The notes under the pieces are model-generated. The model did not search any database. It saw only the letters and a program-made list of their open reading frames with translations, and was not told the DNA's origin. A stretch of 64,000 bases of DNA, taken from Sulfuritalea hydrogenivorans sk43H (GTDB lineage Bacteria > Pseudomonadota > Gammaproteobacteria > Burkholderiales > Rhodocyclaceae). Positions within the stretch are counted from its first letter, which is position 1. Every line of letters begins with the position of its first letter. Both the position numbers and the translations under genes were made by a program. The DNA lies in assembly GCF_000828635.1 (NCBI RefSeq), contig NZ_AP012547.1:1240001-1304000 (forward strand). Reading direction: 5' to 3'. Positions 4,857 to 45,287 of the stretch are shown here, one piece after another.

Positions 4857-5022
4857 CATCTGTCCTTGGCGCCTGAGAGATTTACTCCGTCGGCGGGCAG
4901 GCTTCACGTGCTGCAATGAGCTGCCGCTCTCCAGATTTGTGCTGCGTCGTCGGCCCTTTTGCCTGAGCGGTTCCTGGGGGTTGCGCCTTCGGCGGTGACG
5001 GTGGGAGTCACTCTCTCCCGAC
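4857..5022 (-). promoter_or_regulatory. Tandem glycine riboswitch
   Basis: Read on the minus strand, two consecutive glycine aptamers can be recognised. The first runs from CGGGAGAG through GCCGAAGGCGCAA and CUCAGGCAAAAGGGCCGACG. The second runs from UCUGGAGAG through CGCCGACGG and AAUCUCUCAGGCGCCAAGGAC. These are the hallmark motifs of the gcvT-type riboswitch, which normally turns the glycine cleavage operon on when glycine is plentiful. It sits directly upstream of gcvT. Boundaries are approximate. Confidence 0.95.
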
Positions 5023-5068
5023 GACCGGCACGAATTATCCTACAAACGCGTGCGTCGCGCTTGGGCCG

Positions 5069-38352: not shown

Positions 38353-39266
38353 ATGGAATTCCAGAAAACTCCCGGCTGGCTCGACTGGTTCGCCGTCCCG
38401 TCAGCGCCGACTTTCAAGCTGCCCGCCGGCGCGGTCGACGCGCACTGCCATGTCTTTGGCCCCGGCGCCGAGTTTCCCTATGCGCCGGAGCGCAAGTACA
38501 CGCCTTGCGACGCCTCGAAAGCCCGGCTCTATGCGCTGCGCGACCACCTCGGTTTCGCCCGCAATGTCGTGGTGCAGGCCACCTGCCACGGCGCCGACAA
38601 TCGCGCCATGGTCGATGCGCTGGTGCATTCAAATGGCAAGGCCCGTGGCGTCGCCACGGTGCGGCGCACGGTGAGCGATGCCGAATTGCAGCAGATGCAC
38701 GCGGCCGGCGTGCGCGGCGTGCGTTTCAACTTCGTCAAGCGGCTGGTCGACTTCACGCCGAAGGACGAGCTCATGGAAATCGCCGCGCGCATCGCGCCGC
38801 TGGGCTGGCATGTGGTGATCTATTTCGAGGCGGTGGACCTGCCCGAACTGTGGGACTTCTTCACGGCGCTGCCGACCACCATCGTGGTCGACCACATGGG
38901 CCGCCCCGACGTGAGCAAGCCCGTCGACGGGCCCGAGTTCGAGCTCTTCGTCAAGTTCATGCGCGACTACCCGAACGTCTGGAGCAAGGTCAGTTGTCCC
39001 GAGCGCCTGAGCCTCACCGGGCCGAAGGCCTTGAATGGCGAGCAGAATGCCTATCGCGACGTGGTGCCCTTTGCCAAGCGCATCGTCGAGACCTTCCCCG
39101 ACCGCGTGCTGTGGGGCACCGACTGGCCGCACCCCAATCTCAAGGACCACATGCCCGATGACGGCCTGCTGGTCGACTTCATTCCGCACATCGCGACCAC
39201 GCCCGAATTGCAGCAAAAACTGCTGGTGGACAACCCGATGCGCCTGTATTGGCCGGAGGAAAAATA

Positions 39267-39267
<1 letters not shown>
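38353..39267 (+). CDS. ligI: 2-pyrone-4,6-dicarboxylate lactonase
   Basis: This 304-residue amidohydrolase opens the lactone ring of 2-pyrone-4,6-dicarboxylate to 4-oxalomesaconate. It has VDAHCHVFGPG (metal HxH), VVVQATCHGADN and LWGTDWPHPN. The stop overlaps the ligA GTG start. Residues 15-21 (AVPSAPT) come from a dispersed repeat copy ahead of the first barrel strand. Confidence 0.94.
38391..38416 (+). repeat. Dispersed 26-bp repeat, copy 11 (inside ligI)
   Basis: Forward copy containing CCGTCCCGTCAGCGCCGACT; encodes Ala-Val-Pro-Ser-Ala-Pro-Thr. Confidence 0.82.
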
Positions 39268-41531
<2,264 letters not shown>

Positions 41532-41554
41532 GATGAAACCTGTTGTCCGTTCCG

Positions 41555-41662
41555 CGAGCGGGCCGGCCGGGTGCTCTGCGCCGCTCATGTCACCCGTCGC
41601 CGGCTTTAGGCCGTCGCCTCCTTCTTTACTTCGCTCTGCAGAGCACCCGGCCGGCCCGTTCG
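41555..41662 (-). repeat. Structured palindromic element, unit 1
   Basis: Arms of 25 bases (41555-41579 and 41638-41662) are inverted repeats with one mismatch. Between them, on the minus strand, lie GCGAAGTAAAGAAGGAGG (41617-41634), a GC hairpin, and GGGTGACATGAGCG (41582-41595). The same two core motifs recur in unit 2 in the opposite direction, with unrelated arms. Confidence 0.8.
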
Positions 41663-41715
41663 GGACACGCCTTGGGTGTTTGGCGGTTCAGAACCGCGGG
41701 CGTACCCCGCCGCGG

Positions 41716-41805
41716 GTGGCAGGGGGCCGACATGGCGAAGTCAAGAAGGAGGATCGGGCGCAGCCCGGTCCGGGTGACATGAGCGATGGCGGCCCCCTGG
41801 CGCCC
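41716..41805 (+). repeat. Structured palindromic element, unit 2
   Basis: Arms around GGCAGGGGGCCG (41718-41729) and CGGCCCCCTGGC (41790-41801) pair, extending with mismatches to 41716-41734/41787-41805. Inside are GCGAAGTCAAGAAGGAGG (41735-41752), a CGGGC-GCA-GCCCG hairpin (41755-41767) and GGGTGACATGAGCG (41772-41785). The cores match unit 1; the stems do not match but are self-complementary. The whole 353-base ligC-AKR gap holds no convincing gene. Confidence 0.8.
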
Positions 41806-41884
41806 TCGGCACCCTCTGCCTCCCTCCAACGAACTTGGCGTGCCGTGCGTCGCGGATGCCGCAATGCGTGGTGGAACAACTGAC

Positions 41885-42886
41885 ATGCAGCATCGTCGCC
41901 TCGGCCCCTTCACGGTCTCGGCCCTCGGCCTGGGCTGCATGAACCTCAGCCATGCCTATGGAACGCCGCCGGCGCCCGAGGCGGCCGAAGCGCTGCTGCT
42001 GCGTGCGCTCGACAGCGGCATCACATTCTTCGACACCGCCGCGCTCTACGGCTTCGGCGCCAACGAGACGCTGCTCGGCCGCGTGCTCAAACCGCACCGG
42101 CACAGGATCGTGCTCGCCAGCAAATGCGGCATGACCGGGGTCAATGGCAAGCGCGTCATCGACGGCCGGCCGCAAAGCCTCAAGCGCGACTGCGAGGCCA
42201 GCCTCGCCCGCCTGCAGACCGACGTCATCGACCTCTACTACCTGCACCGCTGGGACAAGCAGGTGCCGATCGAAGACAGCATCGGCGCGCTGGCCGACTT
42301 GGTGCGCGAGGGCAAGGTGCGCAGCATCGGCTTGTCCGAAGTGTCGGCGCTGACGCTACGGCGCGCACATGCCGTGCATCCGGTCACCGCGCTGCAATCC
42401 GAGTATTCGCTATGGACGCGCGAGGCCGAAATCGCCACGCTCGCCGCCTGCCGCGAACTGGGCGTGGCCTTCGTCGCCTTCAGCCCGCTGGCGCGCGCCT
42501 TCCTCACCGACACCCTGCACGATCCGGAGGCGCAACTGGAGGCGAAGGACATCCGCCGCCAGATGCCGCGCTTCGAGCCGGCCAATTACGCGAAGAACCT
42601 CGAACTGCTGCCCGAGTACCTGCGCATTGCCGCCGAAGCCCGCTGCACGCCGGCCCAACTGGCGCTGGCCTGGCTGCTGGCGAAGGGCGAGGACATCATC
42701 CCCATCTTCGGCACGCGGACGCTTGAGCATCTCGACGAGAACGTTGCCGGTGCCGACGTGCAGCTCGATCGGAAAACGGTCGAACGGCTCGACGCCCTGA
42801 TCAACCAGCAGACCGTAAGCGGGCCGCGCTACAACACGGCCACGCAACTTGAAATCGACACCGAAACATTTCCGATCGCAGCCTAG
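41885..42886 (+). CDS. Aldo/keto reductase
   Basis: This 333-residue NADPH-dependent reductase has the catalytic tetrad in FFDTAALYG (Asp, Tyr), LASKCGM (Lys) and YYLHRWD (His). The start is taken at MQHRRLGPFTVSALGLGC; the upstream in-frame sequence runs into the structured element. It sits between ligC and the second dioxygenase pair. Aromatic aldehyde reduction is a guess; the pathway does not need it. Confidence 0.88.
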   Translation: MQHRRLGPFTVSALGLGCMNLSHAYGTPPAPEAAEALLLRALDSGITFFDTAALYGFGANETLLGRVLKPHRHRIVLASKCGMTGVNGKRVIDGRPQSLKRDCEASLARLQTDVIDLYYLHRWDKQVPIEDSIGALADLVREGKVRSIGLSEVSALTLRRAHAVHPVTALQSEYSLWTREAEIATLAACRELGVAFVAFSPLARAFLTDTLHDPEAQLEAKDIRRQMPRFEPANYAKNLELLPEYLRIAAEARCTPAQLALAWLLAKGEDIIPIFGTRTLEHLDENVAGADVQLDRKTVERLDALINQQTVSGPRYNTATQLEIDTETFPIAA

Positions 42887-42896
42887 GAGTCAGGAC

Positions 42897-43253
42897 ATGA
42901 ACAACGGCAAGCAGAAGCGCGTGATACCCGGCACCACGATGTTCGACGGCGACATGGCACGCAAGGGCTACGCCCTGAACAAGATGTGCTTTTCCTTCAA
43001 CTCGGCCGAGAACCGCGCCGAGTACCTCAAGGACAAGGAGGCCTACTGCGACAAGTACGGCCTCAACGCGCAGCAGAAGAAGGCCGTGCTGAGCCTGCAG
43101 GTGCTGGACATGCTGGCGGCCGGCGGCAACGCCTACTACCTGGCGAAGCTCGGCGGCATCTTCGGCCTCGACATGCAGGACATCGGCGCGCAGCAGACCG
43201 GCATGAGCAAGGACGAGTTCAAGGCGAAGCTCGTCGCCGCGGGGAGGAACTGA
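42897..43253 (+). CDS. Second protocatechuate 4,5-dioxygenase-type alpha subunit (PmdA-like)
   Basis: This 118-residue small subunit has VIPGTTMFDGDMARKGYALNKMCFSF and YYLAKLGGIFGLDMQDIGAQQTGMS. These resemble my memory of Comamonas PmdA more than LigA. It starts 10 bases after the aldo/keto reductase gene and ends two bases before its beta subunit. It differs clearly from the alpha subunit at 39267, so this is not a recent duplication. Confidence 0.88.
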   Translation: MNNGKQKRVIPGTTMFDGDMARKGYALNKMCFSFNSAENRAEYLKDKEAYCDKYGLNAQQKKAVLSLQVLDMLAAGGNAYYLAKLGGIFGLDMQDIGAQQTGMSKDEFKAKLVAAGRN

Positions 43254-43255
43254 TC

Positions 43256-45287
<2,032 letters not shown>

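Follow-up and report, generated by a model that had tools for sequence, protein, structure and literature searches.

MITEs and similar elements, among them Correia/NEMIS, RUP and ERIC, are short, gene-less repeats dispersed between bacterial genes. The attC sites of integrons are recombination substrates in which the folded single strand is conserved rather than the sequence. REP units of 20-35 nt, which carry at their foot a GT(A/G)G head directly followed by a short GC palindrome, occur mainly as inverted doublets, and these REP doublets, REPINs or BIMEs are presumed to be mobilized in trans with the involvement of RAYT (PMC2817692). Here we analyze a twin-hairpin element found in a 64,000-nucleotide stretch of the Sulfuritalea hydrogenivorans sk43H genome (hereafter, the window).

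The element fills the gap between the TAG stop codon (41529-41531) of a gene that we take, judging from its sequence, to encode a Gfo/Idh/MocA-type oxidoreductase and the ATG start codon (41885) of a gene for what is presumably an aldo/keto reductase, and thus occupies the exact stop/start junction of an operon (Table 1). The two units together make up a single element. In each of them an outer stem of 24-25 bp is followed by an internal loop, where the fixed motifs GAAGTAAAGNNGG / GGNNGACATGAG lie, and by an apical hairpin. Within the window, GAAGTNAAGAAGGAGG is found only at 41617-41632(-) and 41737-41752(+), where 0.05 occurrences are expected with two mismatches allowed, and GGGTGACATGAGCG is likewise limited to one site per unit. 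The arms of unit 1 (41548-41579 with 41638-41669) are 88% complementary over 32 nt, and those of unit 2 (41709-41736 with 41783-41810) are 82% complementary over 28 nt. The small hairpin between the units is nested in a weaker inverted repeat (41661-41671 / 41699-41709), and in copy L006 this outer repeat, CGGGATACGCC/GGCGTATCCCG, pairs perfectly. A previous sequence-only reading of the locus had delimited the structure at 41545-41815, which proved too short for the whole element with its central hairpin.

Table 1. Coordinates of the twin-hairpin element and its neighboring genes in the window
Feature	Position	Strand	Basis
Whole element, ~350 bp	41533..41884		Filled versus empty sites (TGAAATG) in related species; ends common to copies at other loci
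Left end, ATGAAAC	41533..41539	+	In relatives, the outer arm is followed by the reverse complement GTTTCAT and then by the stop codon that ends the upstream gene
Hairpin unit 1 (outer stem, internal loop, apical hairpin)	41556..41658	-	Covariance model match, 81.7 bits; fold
Unit 1 core motif, 5' loop strand, GAAGTAAAGAAGGAGG	41617..41632	-	Motif search
Unit 1 core motif, 3' loop strand, GGGTGACATGAGCG	41582..41595	-	Motif search
Small central hairpin between units, GCGGTTC-A-GAACCGC	41683..41697		Sequence
Hairpin unit 2	41711..41811	+	Covariance model match, 84.4 bits; fold
Unit 2 core motif, 5' loop strand, GAAGTCAAGAAGGAGG	41737..41752	+	Motif search
Unit 2 core motif, 3' loop strand, GGGTGACATGAGCG	41772..41785	+	Motif search
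Right end, GTGGTGGAACAACTGAC before ATG, Shine-Dalgarno-like; consensus of relatives, GTGGAGCAACTGAN-ATG	41868..41884	+	Comparison of ends
Upstream gene, 319 aa, ends at the element	40572..41531	+	ORF
Downstream gene, 333 aa, begins directly after the element	41885..42886	+	ORF

Two further features of the window were recorded. Two gene pairs that resemble each other (39249-40575 and 42849-44095) stand in tandem, one on each side of the oxidoreductase and reductase genes, and both pairs end in predicted LigB extradiol dioxygenase-type proteins. The sole Rfam match in the window is a glycine riboswitch aptamer (RF00504, 66.4 bits) at 4941-5030 on the minus strand.

The proposal of twin units with shared motifs and paired arms is confirmed by the motif search and arm complementarity, as well as by folding and by a covariance model. 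Compared with dinucleotide shuffles, the two window units reach z-scores of -6.8 and -5.3 when folded as RNA, and of -7.3 and -6.2 when the motif strand is folded as DNA. When a covariance model trained on 32 units from other genomes was run over the whole 3.80-Mb, single-contig genome, it identified exactly two sites, both of them the window units (E ~3e-14 for unit 1 and ~7e-15 for unit 2); neither this model nor the motif search found further copies in this genome.

Covariation was assessed in 32 diverse units belonging to a single length class; their outer arms pair position by position without gaps. In this sample 94.1% of the outer-arm cells are paired and both sides have changed in 31 of the 32 base pairs, so that the arms are conserved in pairing and not in sequence, as had been anticipated together with the conserved core motifs. 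The covariation score is 0.769 compared with 0.213 in shuffled data, and 272 compensatory cells are observed versus 73 (none of 500 shuffles was as high in either case); sliding the pairing partner abolishes the signal, and RNAalifold recovers essentially the same structure. Over 311 units the median number of Watson-Crick pairs is 25, and it drops to 13 if each arm is matched with one from another unit.

The stem foot is variable, and the conserved bases sit in the internal loop, which also covaries. The loop positions N1N2 change together with M1M2 (GA/GG in 143 units, GG/AG in 38 and AA/GT in 27), with specific couplings of N1 to M2 and of N2 to M1 in mostly non-Watson-Crick combinations. 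The purine-rich AAGAAGGAGG had been suggested as a possible ribosome-binding site. Its two G/A positions covary with two positions of the opposite loop strand, and the Shine-Dalgarno-like sequence of the element lies at the right end instead, so this assignment is abandoned. The two loop strands show a weak mirror resemblance (AAGTAAAG versus reversed GACATGAG). At several loci (L009, L012, L013, L020 and L210) one of the two units has an apical hairpin extended by a similar piece of ~50-60 nt (CGGAGCAGTGCTCCGCG / TGCCATGCAGGGCAA), which looks like the insertion or exchange of an additional hairpin.

Further copies are numerous in related genomes. Using a pattern with two loop positions loosened, we found them in 17 of the 31 genomes of the genus and in 7 of the 68 genera of the family. 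Relatives that carry the elements include Sulfuritalea and Sulfurisoma-type records of the Rhodocyclaceae/Rhodocyclales. Copies also occur in at least 120 stretches from other genomes, mostly of Burkholderiales (including Rubrivivax, Hydrogenophaga, Rhodoferax, Variovorax, Methylibium, Paucibacter and Caldimonas), with Luteimonas and Pseudoxanthomonas of the Xanthomonadales as gammaproteobacterial hosts among the matches listed. Reversed-pattern controls gave no match, and a single match in Algoriphagus, where the outer arms are absent, is probably due to chance. Most genomes hold few copies, as does the genome of the window with its one pair, but the number reaches 82 units, or ~41 near-identical twin elements, in Luteimonas terricola. 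The geometry of the pair is fixed: neighboring units are divergent in 83 of 84 pairs, and 46 pairs have their cores spaced by exactly 106 nt.

No match to the pattern was found in viral contigs, and the element of the window is absent from plasmid and phage records; the consensus unit occurs among plasmid records only in three Variovorax replicons (megaplasmids) and one Burkholderia plasmid. Rfam 15 contains no family that matches at the gathering score, a permissive threshold yielding only weak chance matches to hairpin precursors, and literature searches on the core strings and related repeats returned nothing relevant. We regard the twin-hairpin family as real and without earlier description in the sources searched, and our confidence is high in the conservation, the structure and the dispersal of the element.

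Comparison of orthologous loci shows how the element came to lie in the operon. In several related species the same junction is empty, stop and start nearly touching in TGAAATG, whereas in others it is filled as TGARATG-[element]-ACTGAAATG. The filled state is found in six species, and many related species keep the operon without the element. Five of the six form a clade with 100/100 support in the gene tree; the genome of the window falls outside this clade, and the arms of its element are of another type, one also found in copies at other loci in other species. The arm type and the tree position together indicate that the element of the window was likely inserted independently at the same junction, although horizontal exchange or losses may also explain the pattern. 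Dispersed hairpin repeats of other kinds are also present near these genes in relatives (L203, at ~1360-1500 in gene direction, and L205): in G010 one of the CCTGAGCCTGTCGAAGG type occupies the same stop/start junction, and in G004 one of the GTCATCCCCGCG..GCGGGAATGAC type is located downstream of the reductase gene.

The fit to gene boundaries extends to other loci. Of 44 twin elements of the family, about half adjoin a stop codon on the left, with an end that reads GTTTCAT outward, and finish on the right in (GT)GGAGCAACTGAN, after which comes the ATG of the following gene. The right end thus contains a Shine-Dalgarno-like sequence, which would drive translation of the downstream gene. The many copies and the filled and empty sites uphold the idea of a small hairpin-bearing mobile unit. 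The copies insert at new intergenic sites and carry no gene of their own; that they are mobile by a dedicated mechanism is a conclusion we hold with moderate confidence.

Strand asymmetry of the stems indicates which molecule folds. On the motif strand (the strand with AAGTAAAG), the outer stems contain 489 G-T versus 73 A-C oppositions, the excess being spread along the whole stem. A duplex cruciform would give no such asymmetry, which means that one folded strand is kept. Relative to the flanking co-directional genes, the G-T to A-C ratio is 104:13 in sense units and 106:11 in antisense units, and read-through host mRNA is therefore not its cause. Selection acts on the folding of one particular strand per unit, regardless of the direction of host transcription. 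The apical loops are distinctive as well: of 151 triloops, 123 are GNA, almost always with C-G closure (C-GNA-G), compared with GNA or its complement TNC in 11 of 142 background hairpins, and 21 of 28 tetraloops are GNNA. When closed by G-C pairs, loops of the GNA and GNNA types are known to form extraordinarily stable DNA mini-hairpins (PMC4686876). When folded as DNA, the motif strands of the two window units reach -42.7 and -39.1 kcal/mol, versus -40.0 and -28.1 kcal/mol for their complements. Of the two readings proposed originally, the small mobile unit is supported; as to a structured RNA, the orientation-independent asymmetry and the DNA-stabilizing apical loops favor single-stranded DNA instead. 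The chances that folded single-stranded DNA is the working form appear to us about even.

The main rival to the single-stranded DNA reading is a structured RNA, which we consider possible, if on the unlikely side. The units would be transcribed outward from the center as two divergent small RNAs, or on both strands by chance, and the folded RNA would bind a protein via its internal loop. Covariation and an excess of G-U over A-C are likewise expected of an RNA, the loop couplings are of a non-Watson-Crick kind, and AGUA opposite GAC resembles, by its sequence, a loop-E type motif. On the other hand, the asymmetry is equal in both orientations to host genes, the triloops are GNA rather than the usual RNA tetraloops, inspection of the GC-rich center reveals no obvious promoter, and no Rfam family responds at its gathering score.

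We find it improbable that the element is an ordinary MITE moved by a DDE transposase, with hairpins that block read-through or act as bidirectional 3'-end/terminator elements and so render insertions tolerable. Such an origin would be consistent with the terminal inverted repeats GGTTCATCTCCCAACT of the Luteimonas terricola copies, with the 9-11 bp A/T-rich direct repeats of several Luteimonas copies, which lie next to terminators (for example CCACGAAAAA in L307 and CACAAAAAA in L289), and with the avoidance of divergent gene pairs (23 elements in convergent, 35 in co-directional and 2 in divergent context). However, the copies of Caldimonas mangrovi, which end in CGGCCATTTGCAGACG and GACTGCATCGGGTCG, have imperfect inverted ends and no visible duplication, and a search of Luteimonas terricola for an autonomous transposon with the Luteimonas ends returned only twin elements or their remnants and no intact transposon. 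The invariant loop motifs, the loop covariation and the strand asymmetry in antisense units are also left unexplained by this model. In the lineage of the window a duplication amounts to at most ATG. The ends thus differ across Luteimonas, Caldimonas and Rhodocyclaceae around a constant twin-hairpin core, so the hairpins may be carried as cargo instead of forming the ends. The outer flanks in Rubrivivax and Rhizobacter (e.g. L081, L083 and L171) often hold AACGTCCGCAACNTGCCG, which resembles the Caldimonas end CGGCCATTTGCAGACG read outward and may be the element end in these genera. In two Luteimonas copies (L310 and L311) the left hairpin is mostly or wholly missing between short direct repeats, as expected from deletion across a hairpin.

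A host regulatory element that acts in the operon mRNA by switching translation or processing between one gene and the next is very improbable, despite the exact stop/start placement with its own Shine-Dalgarno-like end and the same junction being filled in six species, and we reject it because the asymmetry is equal in sense and antisense units, the mRNA-antisense unit being equally well kept, the neighbor genes varying between copies, and many related species having the same operon without the element.

Analysis of candidate mobilizing enzymes covered neighbor genes, Y1/RAYT proteins and the transposons of Luteimonas terricola, and yielded no candidate. No protein recurs beside the elements except for the same genes at orthologous loci. 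The Y1 transposase domain PF01797 is absent from Luteimonas terricola with its 82 units and from G082, G219, G153, G435 and G018, and beside the RAYT genes of the genus and of high-copy hosts there are isolated core-like matches but no core pair. A RAYT/Y1 protein was therefore rejected as the mobilizer, being missing in several rich hosts and not flanked by units where present.

The explanation we favor, to which we give an even chance, is that of a widespread non-autonomous REPIN-like mobile repeat of two divergent hairpin units, in which the folded single DNA strand is functional and which is moved in trans; the last point is deduced from the absence of an element-borne gene. Replication or transposition would unpair either DNA strand and leave exactly one correctly oriented hairpin on each. 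An enzyme supplied in trans might then bind the internal loop (AAGTAAAGNNGG / GGNNGACATGAG) and cut or move the element, a step modeled on the proposed handling of REP doublets by RAYT. In the lineage of the window, where the element lies between stop and start, the Shine-Dalgarno-like sequence of the right end would keep the downstream gene translatable. The folding of the units, the covariation of their stems and the fixed geometry of the pairs are observed directly, and from these and the strand data we infer single-stranded DNA to be the functional form. Points that count against this explanation are the failure to find a mobilizing enzyme, the lineage-specific ends, a strand asymmetry that an RNA would share, the low copy number of most genomes and a unit sample that is partly related by descent. 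It is a doubtful extension that the family represents an undescribed mobile class, in which a hairpin on each strand is recognized as folded single-stranded DNA through its covarying loop by a novel enzyme, with ends that vary by lineage and that in one lineage are fitted between stop and start with a ribosome-binding site of their own.

This repeat family spans two proteobacterial orders with exceptionally clear covariation of its stems, and it is not accounted for by any gene, RNA family or transposase. Should the folded single strand be the working form, the loop with its paired NN/MM variants would constitute a specificity code for a DNA-processing enzyme. The copies at operon junctions provide a natural experiment on insertion that avoids breaking the translation of the next gene.

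Among known systems, the candidate RNA motif 'Burkholderiales-1', which by its description belongs to Burkholderiales and has no Rfam accession, may overlap with the present family (Weinberg 2010, PMC2864571). The MITEs share with it the short, gene-less, dispersed and intergenic nature and, in Luteimonas, the terminal inverted and direct repeats, but differ by lacking a conserved covarying twin-hairpin core common to elements with different ends and the fixed-orientation fit into operon junctions seen in one lineage. Integron attC sites are similar in conserving a folded single strand rather than a sequence, and differ in their conserved R'/R'' boxes and in the arrangement of cassettes and cognate integrase, which is not seen here, where two opposite hairpins are present. 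The REP doublets, REPINs and BIMEs resemble the family most: in both, two inverted hairpin units at a fixed distance form one dispersed non-coding intergenic element with one properly folded hairpin per strand and presumed mobilization in trans, and their prevalence of inverted doublets is paralleled by the nearly universal divergence of close pairs. Unlike REP sequences, the units are ~100 nt long, their conserved sequence lies in an internal loop instead of at the foot, their stems vary freely, and several rich hosts have no RAYT gene while existing RAYT genes have no flanking units. The twin-hairpin family is closest in logic to the REPINs, yet lacks the RAYT association and the head-and-palindrome structure that define them.
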